A DNA stretch of 54,085 nt from Kofleriaceae bacterium (lineage in GTDB: Bacteria > Myxococcota_A > Polyangia > Haliangiales > Haliangiaceae): contig JANTGM010000031.1 in assembly GCA_024762925.1 (NCBI GenBank), positions 1-54,085 on the forward strand, read 5' to 3'. A program made the translations under genes and the position numbers. Positions 41,127 through 50,120 of this stretch are shown here, in pieces (positions within the stretch are counted from its first letter, which is position 1; every line of letters begins with the position of its first letter). The notes under the pieces were generated by a model. It worked only from the letters and a program-made list of their open reading frames with translations, did not search any database and was not told where the DNA came from.

Positions 41127-41273
41127 GCGGCACCTAAGACGCGAGGATGGCGCTTACTGGAACAAGTGACTGAAGCCAATGCAGACGAGCAACACCGCTT
41201 GCGGGAGTTCGTTCACAGGCAAAGCGCGAACAACGAGCTTGCTGAGGCACTAGAAACCCAGTTCGACGTTTAG
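41127..41273 (+). other. In-frame continuation after the hybrid kinase stop
   Basis: After the kinase TAA (41124-41126) the same frame stays open for 48 codons to TAG 41271-41273. It reads like a charged helix (LLEQVTEANADEQHRLREF, then NNELAEALETQFDV). A GTG at 41166 could start a 35-residue peptide, but its ribosome-binding site is poor. It overlaps the last 24 bp of pfkA on the other strand. It may be the remnant of a longer ancestral kinase C-terminus, a short gene, or chance. Confidence 0.3.
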
Positions 41274-42335
41274 TGAGCGCGCTGCCAGAACTAAGGGGCC
41301 ATCTCGCTGCACCTGCTTGAGTTTGGCGGTCGCTTGCTCTATCGCCACGTCGACAACTTCGCCCCCGCGATACGCTGCCACTCGTCCATACTTTCCCGCC
41401 GCCAAGAGGTCTACAGCGGCCACACCAAAACGGGTTGCGAGCAAGCGGTCAAACGCGGAAGGCGTCCCACCGCGCTGAACGTGCCCAAGCACTGTCGTCC
41501 TCACATCAAAGGAGGTGCGTTCTCGAATGAGTCGCGCGAGATGGTCACCAGCGCCCCCGAGCTGTGCCTGCTGTGTTGCATCGGCTTCTCGTTTGGTGGA
41601 GAAGTCCTCTCCCCGCGGCTTTGCACCTTCGGCAACGACGATGATCGAAAAGGAACACTCGGATTTGTGTCGCCGGCGAAGGGTCGAGACCACCTTGTCG
41701 ATGTCGTAGTCAATCTCGGGAATTAGAATTGCTTCCGCCCCCGATGATAGCCCTGCATTCATCGCGATCCAGCCAGCGTAGCGCCCCATGACTTCGCAGA
41801 TGATGATGCGATCGTGACTCTCCGCTGTGCTGTGCAACCTATCAATGGCATTCACCGCGATATTCACAGCGGTCTGATAGCCAATGGTGTACTCGGTTGC
41901 CTCAAGATCGTTGTCAATCGTCTTTGGAATGCCAACCACTTCCACACCCATCGCCATCATTCGAAGGGCGATTCCCTGGGTGCCATCGCCACCCACCACA
42001 ATCAGCCCTTCCAGTCCAAGGTCGCGATAGTTTTCCAGGCAGCGCTCTGAGACATCAGCCACCACCTCAGTCCCATCAACGCCAACAACAGGGTATGCAA
42101 AGGGATTGGCTCGATTGGATGAGCCCAGTATGGTGCCACCTCGATCGAGCAGGCCCCTGACCGCGCTTAGGGGCAGCGGCATGGTCTCACACTCGTAGAG
42201 TCCCTTGAACGCATCACAGATGCCAACGACATCAAATCCGTATGTGATGGTTGCGTGCTTTACGACGGCCCGAATGGCCGCGTTGAGCCCTGGACAATCT
42301 CCGCCACCTGTCAAGATTCCAATGCGTCTTCTCAT
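41250..42335 (-). CDS. pfkA: 6-phosphofructokinase
   Basis: This enzyme phosphorylates fructose 6-phosphate in glycolysis. The 361-residue protein has the N-terminal MRRRIGILTGGGDCPGLNAAIRA, VVGGDGT at about residue 113-119, PKTIDNDLEATEYTIGYQTA at about 135, EVMGRYAGWIA, and LGHVQRGGTPSAFDRLLATR near 300. It has Gly in the GGDG motif, which favours ATP (PPi enzymes carry GGDD). It has Lys in PKTIDND, as in PPi-linked and group III enzymes; typical allosteric ATP enzymes have Gly there. It therefore looks like a group III, probably ATP-dependent, weakly regulated PFK; the donor is inference. It is convergent with the kinase gene. Confidence 0.93.
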   Translation of the reverse strand: MRRRIGILTGGGDCPGLNAAIRAVVKHATITYGFDVVGICDAFKGLYECETMPLPLSAVRGLLDRGGTILGSSNRANPFAYPVVGVDGTEVVADVSERCLENYRDLGLEGLIVVGGDGTQGIALRMMAMGVEVVGIPKTIDNDLEATEYTIGYQTAVNIAVNAIDRLHSTAESHDRIIICEVMGRYAGWIAMNAGLSSGAEAILIPEIDYDIDKVVSTLRRRHKSECSFSIIVVAEGAKPRGEDFSTKREADATQQAQLGGAGDHLARLIRERTSFDVRTTVLGHVQRGGTPSAFDRLLATRFGVAAVDLLAAGKYGRVAAYRGGEVVDVAIEQATAKLKQVQRDGPLVLAARSLNVELGF

Positions 42336-42442
42336 AGCCCCACAGTAGGTGATCGCCAGCTATGGCAACAAGCTGAGATGGTGCAAACGGGATCCGCCGT
42401 TTCCCTTTGACTCGCCCTCGCTTGCCGGAGTAACAGTAGCCC

Positions 42443-43000
42443 ATGCCTAGCATGGATGGTCTCAAAGTTGTTCTCTCCAAGATTCACGGGTATGGAATCG
42501 TCGCGCTTCGCCCCTTCAAGGCCGGCGAACGACTCGTCACTGGCGACGGCGTGCTCTACCACGAGGACCAGGAGTTTGATGACACCTACGCCTTGGTCTA
42601 CTCCGACGCCGAAGACGAAAACGAAGATCCAGATCGATACTACGATCTCATCGACCAAACCCGCTGGATCAATCACGCGTGCAGCCCAAACACCGAAGTG
42701 ATGACCGACTTAAACCCAGCAAGCGGCGAACCCTACGCGTGGTGGACGGCACTTCGCGACATCGAGGTTGGAGAAGAACTCACGTACGACTACGCGTTTT
42801 CGGGACATTTGGCAGAGCCCTGCAACTGCGACAGCAGCGCCTGTATCGGGCTGATTGTCGATCCAGACGAGCTGGAGGACGTTCCAGAAAACCTGCAGCC
42901 GCTCATCAAGCACGACCGGCTTAGTGCACGACGCGCACAAGTCGAACTTGCCGACCTGTCTAGCGAACGAGTGGCAAGCGCCGCTGCGGTGTCCCGGTAA
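42443..43000 (+). CDS. SET-domain protein (putative lysine methyltransferase)
   Basis: A 185-residue stand-alone SET protein. The N-terminus KVVLSKIHGYGIVALRPFKAGE matches the SET opening strand (GxG). WINHACSPNTEV is the NHxCxPN SAM/active-site motif, GEELTYDYAF supplies the conserved Tyr, and CNCDSSACIG is a post-SET zinc Cys cluster. SET enzymes transfer methyl groups from SAM to protein lysines; bacterial substrates are mostly unknown. The C-terminal 40 residues are acidic to basic and variable. The start is ATG 42443, or ATG 42452 three codons on, with GGAG upstream. It converges with, and overlaps by 41 bp, the molybdenum hydroxylase large subunit gene. It was probably acquired from a eukaryote-like source at some stage, as for other bacterial SET genes, but this is not shown here. 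Confidence 0.88.
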   Translation: MPSMDGLKVVLSKIHGYGIVALRPFKAGERLVTGDGVLYHEDQEFDDTYALVYSDAEDENEDPDRYYDLIDQTRWINHACSPNTEVMTDLNPASGEPYAWWTALRDIEVGEELTYDYAFSGHLAEPCNCDSSACIGLIVDPDELEDVPENLQPLIKHDRLSARRAQVELADLSSERVASAAAVSR

Positions 43001-45143
43001 GCGCGAAGAGAGCACCCGCAACGGCTCCGGCAATTGGAGGTGTGGCGGGTTCGCCAACGCCTCCATGTGCGGCGTTCGACTGCACGATCGTGGTTTCCAC
43101 CTTGGGCATCTCGTTCATGCGAAGCACCTGGTATCGATCGAAGTTGCCTTCGACGACTCCACCGTTTTCGAACTGGATGTTGCCATAGAGTGCTGCGCTC
43201 AAGCCGTAGACAATGCCGCTTTCCATCTGTGCCTCGATCGTGAGCGGATTGATCGTCTGCCCGCAATCGATGACACAGGTGACCTTGTGAACGCGAGGCT
43301 TGCCCTTCTCAATTGAAACCTCGGCTACCTGAGCACAGAAGGACCCAAACGACTCACACGCGGAGATGCCATGGGCGTGTCCTTCGGGCAGCGTTTTGCC
43401 CCATGCGGCTTTCTCGGCCGCCATTTCCATCACTGCGCGCAGGCGTGGATTGTCCTGCACTGCATTGTCCTTTCCGAGTCTTGCGATCTGGGTGTCCAAG
43501 CGAAACTCCAACGGGTCGCGTCCTGCGGCCTTGGCAGCCTCATTCATGAAGCCATCCACAACAAAGCCGTTCTGCGAGTGGCCAACCGAACGCCAAAACC
43601 ATGTAGATATTGGCATCCTTACATCGCTCCAGGTGAGGCGCATATCCGGTACGGCGTACTTGATGCAACCTTCCACCGAACTGCCATCGATGCCACCACG
43701 TAGCGGACCAAACTGGCTGAGAATCGATGGCGATGCGATGCGATGCTCCCAGGCGACAAGCTTGCCTTTGGCTGGATCCACAGCAGCGCGAAAGGTGTTG
43801 AGGGCTGCAGGGCGGTAGTGATACCCGCGAATGTCCTGCTCTCGATCCCAAATGAGCTTCACGGTCTTGCCCGAAGCTACGGCCGCTTCGACTGCCTCCA
43901 CAACAAAATCGGCCTTGGAGCGGCGACCAAATCCGCCACCGAGCAGTTGCCCATTCAAGAAAACTTGCTCCACATCCAAGCCAATGACCTTGGCGGCAGC
44001 TTGCGCGGCCGAAGTGCCACTTTGGGTTCCCGTCCAGATATCGCATCGGTCTTGCGCTATCGCGACCGTGCAGTTTTCGGGTTCCATCGGCGCATGTGCG
44101 AGGTAGGGAACAAAGTACTCAGCCTCAATGACCGTCTCGCTCTTGCCGAGAAGCGATGTCGCTTTGCCCACGGAAAACGCTTCTTTTCCCGTCCTGACCG
44201 CCTTCTGCATCGCTGACTCGATGCTCACCTGAGACAACGTCGCATTGGGCTGCTCCCACTCGACCTTGAGCGCATCACGGCCCTTCATCGCGGCCCACGT
44301 GTGATCAGCGAGAACGACGACACTAGAAGAAGTCTGAACCACATCGCGAACGCCCTCGACCTTGAGAGCCTCGGAGTCGTCGAAGCTCTTCACGATGCCA
44401 CCTACGCTTGGCGCATGCACGCTCTTGCCAATGAGCATTTCGGGCTGTCGAATATCCATCCCGTACGAAGCAGTGCCGGTCACCTTGGCAAAGGAATCGA
44501 GACGCAGCGTGGGCGTGCCCAGCACCAGCTCCTCTCGAAGTGGCGCATCGGCTGTGAGTGAAAGTCCCGACGCCTTCGTGGCAACCTCTCCGAAGCGCAC
44601 GCTCTTGCCACCCTTGGCCCATTGCACCTGGGATTCAGACGTTTCGCATTCGTCCTCGGGAGCGCCCATCGCCTCAGCAGCTGCTGCGATGAGCAGCTTG
44701 CGCGCAGTAGCTCCAACAACCCGAAAGTTGTCGAACCCTGTGCGAACTGTTGTCGATCCACCTGTGCTTTGCCTGCCAAAGGCCTTGGTGTCGAGAGGGG
44801 CGGTTGTCGCAACTGCGTTCTTCCAAGCGCCACCGAGTTCTTTCGATATCACCATGGGGATTGCCGTGTGCACACCCTGGCCCATTTCGGCCTCTGGCAC
44901 GGAATACGTGATGACATCGTTCTCGGCGATGTGTATCCACGCAGAGAGCGTGCCGCCACCTGAGCCCGCAATGGGTGGCGCCGTGGTCTCCGATGGCGTC
45001 GCCGATGAGATTGCATCAGAACGTTTCTTAGCTACGGCCTCGCCCTTCGATTCCACATTTTCCTTGCTCCTGCAGCTAGGTAGCGCCATGACGAGCAGCC
45101 CACCTTGCCCTGAGAGTCGCAAGAATGACCTGCGGGTGATCAT
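42960..45143 (-). CDS. iorB: Molybdenum hydroxylase large subunit (IorB-type)
   Basis: The xanthine-oxidase-family catalytic subunit binding molybdopterin cytosine dinucleotide, in the isoquinoline 1-oxidoreductase beta/aldehyde oxidase branch. It is 727 residues from ATG 45143, which overlaps the small-subunit stop (ATGA) and has GGGGGAAG upstream. The N-terminus MITRRSFLRLSGQGG is a Tat signal (RRSFLRL), and a Cys at the end of the hydrophobic part (ALPSC) could be lipidated, so the enzyme is periplasmic. Visible motifs are EAEMGQGVHTA, the GQLLGGGFGRRSK cofactor loop and GGVGEPATPPIAGAVAGALF with the catalytic Glu. The substrate is likely an aldehyde or N-heterocycle. Overlaps the SET gene end to end. 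Confidence 0.9.
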   Translation of the reverse strand: MITRRSFLRLSGQGGLLVMALPSCRSKENVESKGEAVAKKRSDAISSATPSETTAPPIAGSGGGTLSAWIHIAENDVITYSVPEAEMGQGVHTAIPMVISKELGGAWKNAVATTAPLDTKAFGRQSTGGSTTVRTGFDNFRVVGATARKLLIAAAAEAMGAPEDECETSESQVQWAKGGKSVRFGEVATKASGLSLTADAPLREELVLGTPTLRLDSFAKVTGTASYGMDIRQPEMLIGKSVHAPSVGGIVKSFDDSEALKVEGVRDVVQTSSSVVVLADHTWAAMKGRDALKVEWEQPNATLSQVSIESAMQKAVRTGKEAFSVGKATSLLGKSETVIEAEYFVPYLAHAPMEPENCTVAIAQDRCDIWTGTQSGTSAAQAAAKVIGLDVEQVFLNGQLLGGGFGRRSKADFVVEAVEAAVASGKTVKLIWDREQDIRGYHYRPAALNTFRAAVDPAKGKLVAWEHRIASPSILSQFGPLRGGIDGSSVEGCIKYAVPDMRLTWSDVRMPISTWFWRSVGHSQNGFVVDGFMNEAAKAAGRDPLEFRLDTQIARLGKDNAVQDNPRLRAVMEMAAEKAAWGKTLPEGHAHGISACESFGSFCAQVAEVSIEKGKPRVHKVTCVIDCGQTINPLTIEAQMESGIVYGLSAALYGNIQFENGGVVEGNFDRYQVLRMNEMPKVETTIVQSNAAHGGVGEPATPPIAGAVAGALFALTGTPQRRLPLVR

Positions 45144-45643
45144 TGCTCTTCCCCCTTTTGCATATACTTTGCGGCTTTGTGCACCGACTTCCGAATGCGG
45201 TTGTAGGTTCCGCATCGGCAAATGTTGCCCCGCATAGCCTCATCAATATCCTGATCGCTCGGCCTTGGATTTCGCTTGAGCAACGCGTAGGTCGTGAGAA
45301 TCTGCCCTGGCTGGCAGTAGCCACACTGCGGCACGTCTTCGGAAATCCACGTTTCCTGAATCGCATGAACCACAGCGGTGGTCCCCTGTTCCGGTTCGCG
45401 CATCGCCGTGAGCCCCTCAATGGTGATAATCTTTGCCTTTCCTACATCGGAAATCGCCAGCTGACAGGACACCATCTCCACGCCATCGAGAAGCACTGTG
45501 CATGCGCGACACTGTGCAACTCCACAACCAAACTTCGATCCCGTGAGACCAAGAATGTCGCGTAGCACCCAGAGAAGAGGCATGTCCTCAGGTGCGCTCA
45601 CCGTCATGGCCTCGCCGTTTATGTTGAGTGAATAGTTCGCCAC
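45140..45643 (-). CDS. iorA: Molybdenum hydroxylase iron-sulfur subunit (IorA-type)
   Basis: A 167-residue electron-transfer subunit with two [2Fe-2S] clusters. The plant-ferredoxin type site is in SKFGCGVAQCRACTVLLDG plus a later Cys (VSCQLAI). The second cluster in the C-terminal helical domain is in PQCGYCQPGQI and GNICRCGTYNRI. It lacks its own signal and would be carried through the Tat system with the Tat-signalled partner, as in other periplasmic members. GTG start at 45643 without a strong Shine-Dalgarno. Typical two-subunit iorAB order with a 4-bp overlap; no FAD subunit and no XdhC-type maturase is next to it. Confidence 0.92.
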   Translation of the reverse strand: MANYSLNINGEAMTVSAPEDMPLLWVLRDILGLTGSKFGCGVAQCRACTVLLDGVEMVSCQLAISDVGKAKIITIEGLTAMREPEQGTTAVVHAIQETWISEDVPQCGYCQPGQILTTYALLKRNPRPSDQDIDEAMRGNICRCGTYNRIRKSVHKAAKYMQKGEEQ

Positions 45644-45691: not shown

Positions 45692-47215
45692 TTATGGACG
45701 CGCGTGGCTGAGCGCCAGCGCGAGTTCGTCGGCAGCAAAGGGCTTTGCCAAGACATCCACGTCATCGCTAGCAACCAGCGCTTCAATGCGCGGGTCTTCG
45801 ACATTTCCCGAGACCATGATGATTGGCAGTTCTGCGTCAATGCTGCGAATCATTCGGCATGCCTCATCCCCACTTCGGCGAGGCATTTGCAAATCGAGCA
45901 TCGCCAAACAGATTGGGACCTTTGAGTTCTCGAGAAGCTCAACAGCTTCAACACCATCGTGGGCTTCGATGACCTCGTAGCCAAGGCGCCGAAGCAAGCG
46001 ACTGGTGTGCCTACGCACCAGAGGCTGGTCTTCTGCAAGCAAGATGTGCCGCCCCTGACCGCGAGGGGCGATGGCCCGGGTTTGTGAATCGGGTGCAGCC
46101 GGCGTATTGGCGTTCTGCGCGCTGGCACCCTGGCAAGGCAGGTAGACGGAGACGGAGGTTCCCTCACCAAGCTTGCTTTGAATATCGATCGACCCTCCGT
46201 AGTTCTTCACGATGCCATATGTGGTCGCCATTCCGAGTCCGGTGCCGTGCCCCTCTCCTTTTGTCGAGAAAAAGGGTTCAAAAACGCGCTGCCGAACCTC
46301 GTGACTCATTCCAACCCCGGTATCTTTAATGCGAAAGCACACAAAGCGGCCAACTCTCTCGCTGTCGGGAGGAAGTTGGTCGCAGACCTCGACCGTTAGG
46401 GTGCCACCATGTGGCATTGCGTCACGCGCATTGATGCAGAGATTCATCAAGACCTGAACCAGTTGCCCTCGTTCTGCGACAACGAGTGACTGACTCGAAT
46501 GCTCCGTCCGAACGCGAATTCTTTGGTCAAAGGTACGCTGGATGAGACGAGTCACTTCGTCGGCAACGTCTGATGCCTTGACTAAGTCGTTTGCTTGATC
46601 ACCCTGTCGCGCAAAACTAAGAAGTTGTCTGGCGAGGTCCGCGCCGCGCTCGGATGCGGTCATGATGTCTGCGGTGGTCTCTTCGAGATTGGAAGCATCG
46701 CCCTCTTCGAAGTCGTCGACGAGGCAGCTGGTTGCACCAACGATGGCCATCAGTACATTGTTGAAGTCATGGGCGATGCCAGAAGCCAGTCGCCCCAGCG
46801 ATTCGAGTTTCTGTGCCTCTAGTGCCCGTTGGTAGTCCGAGTCGTAGGGACGAAAGAGGATGACCTCGCCGCGCCCCAGGTCGATGCGGTCACCAAAGCG
46901 CAGCACCGCTGAGTCGCGTTTTACTCCGTTGACGAGAATGCCATTGACACTCTTGTTGTCATGCACGACCCAACCCTCTTCAACCTTGAGGATTCGCGCA
47001 TGCACACGCGAGATGTGACTACAGGGGATATGCAGGGAGCAATCGCTCCCACGGCCAACGGTTATCTCTTCGTGATCAAGTATTCGAGTGCTGGTATTGG
47101 AGACTCGCTCGGAGACGTGAACGATGCAAGCATGAGGCTCCTTGTGTTCGCCGGCGGCCCTCTCTCGCACCATGACCGATGTCATGGTGTCGGCTTCATT
47201 CCAGCTCTCGCCCAT
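45692..47215 (-). CDS. FHA-domain hybrid histidine kinase with receiver
   Basis: A 507-residue soluble kinase. An FHA domain (about residues 30-120) shows VGRGSDCSLHIPCSHISRVH and DNKSVNGILVNG, which bind phospho-Thr peptides. Then HisKA with GIAHDFNNVL (His about 147), and HATPase_c with NLCINARDAMPHGG, DTGVGM and GHGTGLGMAT, of the NtrB-like subclass. A C-terminal receiver has LLAEDQPLVRR, MLDLQMPRRSGDE (acceptor Asp about 440) and the Lys of LAKPF. FHA joined to a His kinase suggests an input from Ser/Thr kinases; no such kinase is encoded nearby. The start may be Met1 (47215), Met11 or Met15; none has a good ribosome-binding site. It lies upstream of iorA by 48 bp on the same strand, so co-expression is possible. 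Confidence 0.9.
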   Translation of the reverse strand: MGESWNEADTMTSVMVRERAAGEHKEPHACIVHVSERVSNTSTRILDHEEITVGRGSDCSLHIPCSHISRVHARILKVEEGWVVHDNKSVNGILVNGVKRDSAVLRFGDRIDLGRGEVILFRPYDSDYQRALEAQKLESLGRLASGIAHDFNNVLMAIVGATSCLVDDFEEGDASNLEETTADIMTASERGADLARQLLSFARQGDQANDLVKASDVADEVTRLIQRTFDQRIRVRTEHSSQSLVVAERGQLVQVLMNLCINARDAMPHGGTLTVEVCDQLPPDSERVGRFVCFRIKDTGVGMSHEVRQRVFEPFFSTKGEGHGTGLGMATTYGIVKNYGGSIDIQSKLGEGTSVSVYLPCQGASAQNANTPAAPDSQTRAIAPRGQGRHILLAEDQPLVRRHTSRLLRRLGYEVIEAHDGVEAVELLENSKVPICLAMLDLQMPRRSGDEACRMIRSIDAELPIIMVSGNVEDPRIEALVASDDVDVLAKPFAADELALALSHARP

Positions 47216-47297: not shown

Positions 47298-47333
47298 GCG
47301 AAACGACCACTTCAGAATCTGCTGAAGTGGTCG
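47298..47333 (-). terminator. Probable intrinsic terminator after the pseudoprotease gene
   Basis: A perfect 12-bp stem (CGACCACTTCAG 47304-47315, CTGAAGTGGTCG 47322-47333) with a 6-base loop, 38 bp after the stop at 47371. On the minus strand it is followed by TTTCGCTTT, an interrupted T-tract. It separates the pseudoprotease gene from the FHA kinase start at 47215. Confidence 0.8.
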
Positions 47334-47370: not shown

Positions 47371-48837
47371 CTAGCTGATACGTCGCCGTCTAAAGAAGCC
47401 GAGAACGAACAGCAAACCAAGCCCAGCGAGAAGCGAGTTGCGCTCGCCATCGTGTAGGTGTGGCGAAGAAGCGGCATGGCAAAACCCACCTCCGCCGCTG
47501 CGCAGCTCAACCCGGCAGACTGTCGTGTTGCCATCATCTAGCGATGGCAGACAGAAGAAACCATTGTCGTTGTCACAAGTGTCAGCTGCAGTGTCACACT
47601 CAAAAGCACAGAACGAGTTCTCGCAGAACCCAGAGCGACACTCACCTGGAGAGGTACATGCGGCACCTTGTGAACCAGGTGAGATTCCCTCATACACGCA
47701 GCGGTTCTCGCTACTACATGTCATGCCAGCTGGGCAGCTCCCGACGTCGGCCTGGTCACAGGGCTTGTCGCAATAGGTGAAGCTCGGGTCATCCGTCGCA
47801 GCAATGCACGCACCAAGCTCTTCGCAGTCGCCATCATCCTCGCAGCCTTCACCACCAAAAGAACCAATGGAACAATCCCAATCGCGGGTGTCACAGACTT
47901 CTTCGCAAGTGCCGTTGTAGTCGCAAGCGTCGCAACCACCAGCTTCACAGCCGCCGCTCACGTACTTGATAAACGGCTCCAGAAAATCGGCGGCGACAAC
48001 ATCCACGCGTTGGCGATTCGCGTTTTCATCACACTCTTGCTGGGTTGTTGTGACAGTGACGAGCTCGGGGCCATTCCCAAAGTCCATGAAGCCTGGTCCA
48101 CCGCCATCGGCGTAGCAGGTCGTAGCCTCCGGTGTCCCTGCCGTAAGACGCGTTGGGCTGATGCTGACAATCGGCGTCGACACGACATTGCGTGCAGTAA
48201 ACTCTTCGAGGGTGCCCGCTGCGTCGTCTTCTTTGCCAAAGCCAACAAATTCAATTGGCATCCCAATGTGCTCTTCGCCAAGCGGGTCGGTGTGAAGCAC
48301 AACCGGAGTCACAGCTGGTGACGGCACCTCGGTAAGGTGCAACAGGGCAAAGTCGTTCTGGCCGCGGAACTCCGGGTTGTAATAGCGATGCATCGTCAGA
48401 CCTTTGACGGTCATCGGATCCTCGTTGAAATCGTTGTCTAGGTAATACTCCGTAGAGCCACCGATGCTCCCGCCAAACTGCACATAGACCGAAGCGGCAT
48501 CTAGGAACTCATCGGTAAACTCATCATCGAGCTGAGCTTCGAGATTTGCATTGAGACAACCGGCAGCGGTCAACACCGTCTTCTCTTCGACCAAGACACC
48601 TGTGCAATACCGATGCTCGGTGCGCGCGATCTCGTTGTTGCCGCTGGGCAAGAGAATCGTGATGCCAGCAACAGCGGCGTAATGGTCCTGACCTTGCGCA
48701 GGGCCACCTCCTGTTGTGGCTTGAGAGGTGCTTGCAACCTCGCCCTCGCGAAAGTCTCCCGAGTCGAGTTGGCAAGCAGCCAAGCTCGCCGCCAGGCTCA
48801 GGAACATCGGTGCCGATAAAAGCTGATTTCGTCGCAT
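47371..48837 (-). CDS. Inactive trypsin-like (S1 pseudoprotease) Cys-rich lipoprotein
   Basis: A 488-residue exported protein from ATG 48837 (MRRNQLLSAPMFLSLAASLAAC), with lipobox SLAAC; ATG 48846 is an alternative. Residues about 50-290 follow the trypsin fold, but the catalytic His is Gly (VLTAAGCLN where TAAHC is usual) and the Ser is Gly (ADGGGPGF where GDSGGP is usual). Only the Asp remains (NDFALLHL). It should therefore bind rather than cut. A domain with more than 25 cysteines follows (about 295-450: CDACDYNGTCEEVC, CSSENRC, CRSGFCENSFC). The end is a Gly-rich linker with one Cys, a membrane helix (LLAGLGLLFVLGFF) and RRRR, a MYXO-CTERM-like sorting tail. A partner or ligand role is inferred. 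Confidence 0.88.
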   Translation of the reverse strand: MRRNQLLSAPMFLSLAASLAACQLDSGDFREGEVASTSQATTGGGPAQGQDHYAAVAGITILLPSGNNEIARTEHRYCTGVLVEEKTVLTAAGCLNANLEAQLDDEFTDEFLDAASVYVQFGGSIGGSTEYYLDNDFNEDPMTVKGLTMHRYYNPEFRGQNDFALLHLTEVPSPAVTPVVLHTDPLGEEHIGMPIEFVGFGKEDDAAGTLEEFTARNVVSTPIVSISPTRLTAGTPEATTCYADGGGPGFMDFGNGPELVTVTTTQQECDENANRQRVDVVAADFLEPFIKYVSGGCEAGGCDACDYNGTCEEVCDTRDWDCSIGSFGGEGCEDDGDCEELGACIAATDDPSFTYCDKPCDQADVGSCPAGMTCSSENRCVYEGISPGSQGAACTSPGECRSGFCENSFCAFECDTAADTCDNDNGFFCLPSLDDGNTTVCRVELRSGGGGFCHAASSPHLHDGERNSLLAGLGLLFVLGFFRRRRIS

Positions 48838-48938: not shown

Positions 48939-50045
48939 CTAGCCACCTGCGGCAATCAGTCCCTCACAGCAGAGCTGTTCCGCCATGAGAATGCAGCCTT
49001 TTGCCGCTCCCATCTTCGTATTGTGTGACACCAACACGAATTTCCAACCATTTTCCACAGTTGCGTCTGGTCTCAGTCGGCCGACCACGGTGGTCATTCC
49101 ATCCCCTGCGTCACGATCAAGGCGAACCTGAGGGCGGAAGGGATCGGAACTGAGGTGGATGAGCTTCTCAGGTGCAGAGGGGTATCCAGCGCCTAGGACC
49201 GATGCCCCCTGCTCGGCCCACGCGGCGGCAATCTCCTCAGCCGTGACAGCTCGGGAGAGCTTGAGGTGAACCGCTTCTGTGTGGCCTTCCAATACGGCGA
49301 CACGGGTACAGGTTGCAGAAATTCCAAAACTTGCGGGAACCACCGAGTCGCCTTTGAGCTTGCCCAAGACCTTGAGCGTCTCGGCTGCAACCTTCTCTTC
49401 CTCCTTCGGAATGTGCGGAATGATGTTGTCCACAACGTCAAGTGCCACAACTCCCGGTGAGCGACCCGCACCACTCACCGCTTGCATCGAAACCATGTGG
49501 ACAGCTTCGATCCCAAAGGCCTTGTGAAGCGGCGCAAGTGTTATCGCCAGGCCTACTGTCGTGCAGTTGGGATTGGGCGCGACAAACCCCTTCCAACCAC
49601 GCGTCTCGACCTGCTTTTTGAGAAGCGCGATGTGGTCCGGGTTGATACCGGGAAGCAGCAGAGGCACATCATCTTCGTAGCGATAGGCCGAAGCCGTTGA
49701 GATAACGGGCGTCGTCTTTGCATACTGCGCCTCGAGAATCTTGGCGGGCCCGGCGTCCACTGCCGTGAAGACCACGTCCACCTTGGTTGCATCGAGTTGC
49801 TCAGCGTCTTCGACCACCATGGAAGCAAAGGCCTCGGGAAGCTCACCGCCGCCGTACCAAGAAATCTGGCCCGACTCTGAGCGAATCGAGTCCGCATAGG
49901 ACTTGCCAGCGGAGCGGGCAGACGCAGCGAGGCTCACAACCTCGAACCATGGGTGTTCTCGGAGTGCCCCCAAAAACTCTTGGCCTGCGACACCGGTTGC
50001 GCCCACGACGGCGACACGAACTGTTTTCCCTTGAGGTAACGACAT
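48939..50045 (-). CDS. asd: Aspartate-semialdehyde dehydrogenase
   Basis: The enzyme makes aspartate semialdehyde for lysine, threonine, methionine and diaminopimelate. The 368-residue protein begins VRVAVVGATGVAGQEFLGAL (NADP-binding loop) and contains the nucleophile Cys in APNPNCTTVGLA (about residue 159), SMQAVSGAGRSPG, and VAVLEGHTEAVHLKL. NPNCTT is typical of the archaeal/fungal-like branch; the E. coli type reads differently around the Cys. ATG 50045 is chosen because the seven extra upstream residues are not conserved. It stands between the membrane protein gene and the pseudoprotease on the same strand; 75 bp upstream there is only a weak CTAAGA/TCTTAG hairpin. Confidence 0.94.
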   Translation of the reverse strand: MSLPQGKTVRVAVVGATGVAGQEFLGALREHPWFEVVSLAASARSAGKSYADSIRSESGQISWYGGGELPEAFASMVVEDAEQLDATKVDVVFTAVDAGPAKILEAQYAKTTPVISTASAYRYEDDVPLLLPGINPDHIALLKKQVETRGWKGFVAPNPNCTTVGLAITLAPLHKAFGIEAVHMVSMQAVSGAGRSPGVVALDVVDNIIPHIPKEEEKVAAETLKVLGKLKGDSVVPASFGISATCTRVAVLEGHTEAVHLKLSRAVTAEEIAAAWAEQGASVLGAGYPSAPEKLIHLSSDPFRPQVRLDRDAGDGMTTVVGRLRPDATVENGWKFVLVSHNTKMGAAKGCILMAEQLCCEGLIAAGG

Positions 50046-50120
50046 TGGCAACACCGAATGAAGCACGATTGTGCACGGCGGTCAAGACGAGGCTTTCGAG
50101 GACTAAGACTTATTCTTAGC

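Follow-up and report, generated by a model that had tools for sequence, protein, structure and literature searches.

The question raised by this locus is what a trypsin-like domain is kept for once the residues that would make it a protease have gone. The window, i.e., the whole analysed stretch of 54,085 nucleotides from contig JANTGM010000031.1 of a Kofleriaceae bacterium, carries on its minus strand a gene for a putative lipoprotein (P0001) with a peptidase S1 domain. The initial annotation had described the product as a trypsin-like protein dead at two triad positions, and the open reading frame and its translation gave the same coordinates, frame and residues. The protein consists, in this order, of a hydrophobic start with a lipobox, a short linker, the S1 domain, a Cys-rich region and a tail, with the following features:

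47371..48837, minus strand: gene of the putative pseudoprotease P0001, 488 aa (open reading frame and translation; Pfam Trypsin, 51 bits)
48772..48783, minus strand: lipobox LAAC, residues 19-22, with a predicted lipidated Cys22 (sequence motif only)
48706..48717, minus strand: degenerate zymogen activation motif TTGG, residues 41-44 (alignment)
48019..48618, minus strand: Trypsin (S1) domain match, residues 74-273 (Pfam and genome search)
48559..48561, minus strand: Gly93 (codon GGT) at the catalytic His57 position (alignment)
48490..48549, minus strand: acidic insertion after Cys58, about residues 97-116, in place in all three dead orthologues
48352..48354, minus strand: Asp162 at the catalytic Asp102 position, kept (alignment)
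48103..48111, minus strand: Ala243-Asp244-Gly245 at Gly193-Asp194-Ser195 of intact relatives (alignment)
47515..47949, minus strand: Cys-rich region, residues 297-441 (sequence; no Pfam match at E ≤ 1)
47374..47496, minus strand: C-terminal GGGGFC, spacer, hydrophobic helix and Arg4, residues 448-488, of MYXO-CTERM-like architecture (sequence; no TIGR03901 match)
47304..47333, minus strand: terminator-like hairpin of 12 pairs, directly 3' of the gene (stem search)

P0001 scored 51 bits against PF00089 (cut-off 20.6), which places it within the peptidase S1/trypsin fold, and Trypsin was the sole Pfam family found in it at E ≤ 1. The S1 domain is strongly acidic (net -27). The Cys-rich region, unmatched in that scan, contains 22 Cys in 151 aligned residues, in keeping with its first description as very Cys-rich. 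Terminator-like sites numbered four, against 4.2 expected in shuffles, and only the hairpin at 47304..47333 has a long stem.

The catalytic positions were read from a family alignment of 32 rows from 17 genomes, that of the window included, and they are labelled here in chymotrypsin numbering (His57, Asp102, Gly193, Ser195). The His column holds H in 29/29 intact rows and G93 in P0001, the Ser column holds S in all 29 intact rows and G245 in P0001, and the Asp column is D in every one of the 32 rows (D162 in P0001). The corresponding motifs of P0001 are TAAGC, NDFAL and ADGGGP. Together with its two orthologues described below, P0002 and P0003, the protein lacks the triad required of an active S1 protease, since the three positions read G/D/G in P0001, S/D/R in P0002 and H/D/D in P0003. 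A profile of the three orthologues, compared with solved structures, paired the same columns with TAAHC, NDVAL and GDSGGP of MASP-1, an S1 protease whose structure has been solved, and the assignment of Gly to both the His and the Ser positions is confirmed. The remark that these changes need more than one base is correct for the His position, where GGT lies at least two changes from CAC or CAT, and fails for the Ser position, where GGC can be reached from AGC by one change.

Two further signs of lost catalysis had not been mentioned in the initial annotation. Most intact rows have IIGG or IVGG as the activation motif, which has become TTGG in P0001 and is SIGG or missing in the other dead orthologues, and the oxyanion Gly193 has become Ala in P0001 and P0002 and is still Gly in P0003; P0001 therefore has neither the Gly193 nor the Ile/Val16 activation end of an active S1 protease. 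On the other hand, the 29 intact rows have 17 near-invariant columns, and P0001 keeps 13 of them, losing H57, G193, S195 and one further Gly. Those retained include all four Cys, Asp102, Asp194, both Gly that follow position 195 and the GxG, as was proposed from the start for the Asp and the fold motifs. By sequence, the loss has thus hit catalysis and not the fold.

It might be argued that the domain is still an enzyme that works through other residues, given that all three orthologues retain Asp102 and Asp194, and P0003 also His57. Against this, the nucleophile column holds Gly, Arg or Asp, no Ser occurs throughout residues 228-293 of P0001, the stretch expected to hold the nucleophile, and both the Ala at position 193 in two of the proteins and the loss of the activation end in all three speak for inactivity, so that altered catalysis appears highly improbable. 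Nor does the 32-row alignment contain a His common to the three dead orthologues at a column without His in the intact relatives; two columns have a His in P0001 and P0002 only. AlphaFold2 models of the whole protein and of the S1 domain (two sequences each) had mean pLDDT values of 33.3 and 30.4 and were unusable, so this part of the argument, which argues against a substitute triad of His and Ser in P0001, is drawn from sequence alone.

P0002, from a second species of the genus of the window (G019), is 52% identical to P0001 and is dead in another way, with the His changed to Ser and the Ser to Arg (motifs TSASC and ADRGGP). P0003, from another family of the same order (G030), is 38% identical to P0001, has kept the His and changed the Ser to Asp (TAAHC and GDDGGP), and is encoded in tandem with an intact trypsin, P0004. 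Their Pfam Trypsin scores are 43.4 and 57.4 bits, respectively; P0001 and P0002 match Trypsin only, and P0003 also matches Trypsin_2. The S1 domains of the dead three are 247-259 residues long, versus 218-220 in the seven intact relatives compared, with the insertion located after Cys58. In the tree, which was rooted at the midpoint and contains a few long rows, the three group as a single clade (bootstrap 100, SH-aLRT 98) nested in a subfamily of 15 rows, and the loss of the triad is one change of state. A recent tandem duplication in G030 was considered as the origin of the dead gene, and the grouping of P0003 and P0004 as sisters was rejected, weakly (AU p 0.04); the dead line is thus better regarded as old than as a recent duplicate of G030.

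No further orthologue was found among 35 genomes of the order, 377 of the phylum and 317 of the class, sets that overlap. A contig scan with P0001 alone gave no match, and the scan with the three-row alignment gave only L044, from the Kofleriaceae isolate NORP324, which contains all 4305 bases of the G019 locus (L019) and is no fourth orthologue, the DNA of G019 being the same as that of this isolate. All claims based on orthologues refer to these three only, and their source genomes include metagenome-assembled ones. The assembly of the genome of the window is fragmented (246 contigs), and an assembly or sequencing error could be suspected behind the dead triad; this idea is contradicted by a separate orthologue in which both columns are also dead but carry other codons (GGT and AGC at one, GGC and CGT at the other) and the frame is intact, and its chances are negligible.

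The gene lies in a slot whose neighbours in the window, with putative gene names, are the following:

48939..50066, minus strand: upstream neighbour, presumably an argC/asd-like semialdehyde dehydrogenase, conserved left border of the slot
45692..47215, minus strand: downstream neighbour, protein with FHA, histidine kinase and receiver domains (assigned by eye), encoded downstream of the orthologue in G019 as well
42443-42910, plus strand: presumably a SET-like gene, conserved right border of the slot
41253-42353, minus strand: presumably a pfkA-like gene, conserved right border of the slot

The order argC-like gene, slot, SET-like gene, pfkA-like gene and large histidine kinase recurs wholly or partly across the order, and the three dead orthologues are all found at this conserved locus. 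An S1 gene is missing from the slot in G011, G014 and G032. A single intact one is present in G017, G031 and G012 (whose argC-like gene is more distant), G030 has an intact and a Ser-dead gene in tandem, and in G019 and the window the dead gene is the only S1 gene of the slot and is accompanied by the FHA-kinase gene. In a third species of the genus (G020) no dead orthologue was detected, and the argC locus itself was not found either, so this case is not counted as an absence. The search for paralogues also recovered close relatives with an intact triad elsewhere in the genomes of the genus, i.e., C120 in the genome of the window, C671 in G019 and C718 in G020. Stages of the loss are thus preserved at one syntenic locus, from a lone intact gene through an intact gene paired with a Ser-dead copy to a gene that has lost both Ser and His. 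Because these intermediate stages survive, the order of the losses can be read and matched pairs are at hand for testing the role of the dead protein.

Some neighbours deserve a description of their own. Two oxidoreductase genes precede the SET-like gene in the window; positions 42960-45643, inside the argC-SET-pfkA-kinase block, encode by eye the large and small subunits of an oxidoreductase of the molybdenum-hydroxylase type, and these genes are not in that block in L044. The 45692-47215 gene appears, also by eye, to fuse FHA, histidine kinase and receiver domains in one protein. It adjoins the pseudoprotease gene in both species, its counterpart in L044 is 67% identical, and it was not found in the block of the other genera examined.

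The S1 domains of P0001 and P0002 agree at 122 of 251 residues (48.6%, i.e., about 49%), and of the 57 fourfold sites within identical residues only 9 share the third base, which means that synonymous sites are saturated. Free drift would not leave such agreement in the residues, and the dead S1 domain is therefore under purifying selection, although with dS saturated no proper dN/dS value can be given. An intact pair of the same two genomes (G000, that of the window, and G019) has an S1 identity of 66.5%; the dead domain changes faster, and thus part of its constraint has probably been relaxed.

This relaxation could mean that the Cys-rich module is the functional part of the protein and that the S1 domain serves as a spacer and is slowly being eroded. 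The ratio of S1 to Cys-rich identity is 0.84, 0.65 and 0.55 in the dead pairs versus 1.10-1.21 in five intact pairs of the same genus, and the G000/G019 comparison gives an interaction z of -2.19 for S1 against Cys-rich. However, the ratios of the other five intact pairs, taken between genera or from a single genome, are 0.76-1.02, and with five of the ten intact pairs in this range the contrast is only modest evidence. A relaxed constraint on the S1 domain relative to the Cys-rich part is likely, with this modest support; that the domain is a mere passenger we consider unlikely, in view of the residues conserved at saturated synonymous sites and the retained Cys and GxG.

The pseudoprotease reading offered by the initial annotation has gained from the orthologues, which are dead in different ways at one syntenic locus and separated by saturated synonymous sites. 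Catalytic residues have been lost in a conserved orthologous group under selection, which is what is expected of a pseudoprotease, and a protein kept for a non-catalytic role is the best-supported reading of these sequences.

Such proteins are rare in the genomes of the order that were scanned. PF00089 had 17 matches in the genome of the window, 16 of which could be judged, and the only one without the triad residues was P0001; the remaining match is a fragment that contains a stop. Another ten genomes from the order gave 134 matches, of which 130 were examined (two on contig C9 and one on C6 of G017 and one on C41 of G025 were left out): three motif tests cleared 88, the other 42 were inspected by eye, and four are fragments. 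Among the 126 decidable matches only P0002 and P0003 lack a triad residue, which gives a total of 3/142 decidable S1 matches in 11 genomes. Bacterial S1 pseudoproteases have seldom been recorded, and the accessible text of a 2008 survey of 91 prokaryote genomes gives two inactive homologues among 247 trypsin-like proteins (PMC2605481). Our literature search found nothing that joins Myxococcota, pseudoenzyme and serine protease. As to the assemblies themselves, the two trypsin matches on C9 of G017 are equal in length and score to two on C6, which suggests that a stretch of this assembly is duplicated, and a trypsin-like MYXO-CTERM gene in the genome of the window (L016; G000:C193:3315-3551) has a short frame with an in-frame TGA and is possibly a pseudogene or an assembly fault.

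A lipobox is a motif ending in Cys that follows a hydrophobic stretch near the start of a protein, and the LAAC of P0001 at residues 19-22 has this form, as have LVGC and AAGC in the orthologues. At the other end, the three parts of the MYXO-CTERM architecture are present (GGGGFC, helix and RRRR), and the Cys aligns with that of relatives scored by TIGR03901. The tail had been called MYXO-CTERM-like, which holds for its Cys, helix and Arg and does not extend to a match with this model: the tail of P0001 is absent from the 63 matches at E ≤ 1 in the genome of the window (48 above the cut-off, several of them on intact S1 proteins), a scan of the P0001 protein gave 0 families, and the tails of P0002 and P0003 are also unmatched. 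The same model passes P0004 (23.7 bits) and C120 (21.7 bits) at its cut-off of 20. In the tails of the dead clade the motif is altered to GGGFC, and the spacer that separates Cys and helix is longer. By simple rules, a lipobox-like motif is present in 25 of the 32 family rows, a Cys/helix/basic tail in 29 and both in 22, so that the double signal first noticed in P0001 is common in the family and was rejected as a peculiarity of this protein. No description of a lipobox plus MYXO-CTERM double signal was found in the accessible portions of the papers that mention both signals.

In the accessible text on M. xanthus, the invariant Cys of MYXO-CTERM is predicted to be lipidated, and MrtX-dependent cleavage and surface anchoring are shown (PMC11980579). 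The genome of the window encodes an MrtX-like CPBP protease that scores 141.7 bits, below the 180-bit cut-off of NF040593. The open frame of this MrtX-like protease (L144; G000:C2:132934-133599) is 489 aa long, twice the length of M. xanthus MrtX.

We propose that P0001 is an old, conserved pseudoprotease whose S1 domain, devoid of proteolysis, has been kept as a non-catalytic binding or scaffold module of the cell surface, a reading to which we give a probability of about 0.75. A trypsin of the argC-SET-pfkA slot would have given a second copy before the families of the order split, and in this copy the nucleophile Ser and the IIGG activation end would have disappeared and the acidic insertion beside the cleft would have arisen. 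In the genus of the window, the loss of His57 and of the oxyanion Gly193 would have followed, and the active copy would have gone from the locus, with an intact relative elsewhere in the genome. The S1 domain and the adjoining Cys-rich module would belong to a protein that is exported and anchored at the outer surface and that probably binds something instead of cutting it, and the contact surface may be the dead cleft with its acidic insertion, the Cys-rich module, or both.

As a special case of such a binding role, the dead copy might regulate an active S1 paralogue on the same surface by binding, activating, inhibiting or shielding it, in the way that MamE is activated by MamO. The tandem of dead and intact genes in G030 fits this idea, as do the intact relatives of the same architecture in the genome of the window, such as C120, and in magnetotactic bacteria, according to the accessible text of PMC4794232, pairs of an active and an inactive S1 protease evolved on three occasions. 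Nevertheless, no intact relative lies at this locus in the window or in G019, and the tandem pair of G030 was weakly rejected as sisters, so that we hold a regulatory role to be possible and propose it only tentatively.

The pseudoprotease proposed here can be compared with several known systems. The intact P0004, from the argC slot of G030, and C120 share with P0001 the lipobox, the S1 domain, the Cys-rich region and the Cys/helix/Arg tail, and belong to the same 15-row clade, but they have H57, D102, S195, Gly193 and IIGG intact, lack the acidic insertion and carry a tail scored by TIGR03901. Azurocidin, or heparin-binding protein, is a human S1 homologue in which the His has changed to Ser and the Ser to Gly, and it acts as a basic antimicrobial granule protein. 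It resembles P0001 in having an S1 fold with both His and Ser lost, and its chain 1fy3 was matched by the three-orthologue profile (E 7e-6); unlike the basic azurocidin, P0001 has its strongly acidic S1 domain, is bacterial and is predicted to be membrane-anchored. The Cys, transmembrane helix and Arg-rich end of P0001, and the MrtX-related CPBP protease of its genome, recall the MYXO-CTERM proteins sorted by myxosortase, as the accessible text of PMC11980579 presents them, whereas the unrecognised tail, the longer spacer and the sub-cut-off MrtX match set it apart from them.

The nearest tested precedent for the role of P0001 would be MamO, which, in the accessible text of PMC4794232, has a degenerate triad and a non-glycine residue at position 193, binds metal and activates an active partner. 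Both are bacterial pseudoproteases of the chymotrypsin fold, by prediction in the case of P0001, with a degenerate triad and no Gly at position 193, in lineages that also have an active protease; MamO differs, as far as that text goes, in its HtrA/trypsin-2 type of domain, its transporter domain and its di-His metal site, and in not being a surface lipoprotein. By analogy, and more speculatively than the regulatory role itself, the clade could be a bacterial cell-surface counterpart of the MamE/MamO pair, in which a dead S1 lipoprotein, perhaps anchored by lipid at its two ends, would control or aim the active trypsin-like lipoproteins that share its outer surface; G030 (intact and Ser-dead tandem) would then represent an early stage and the genus of the window a late one.
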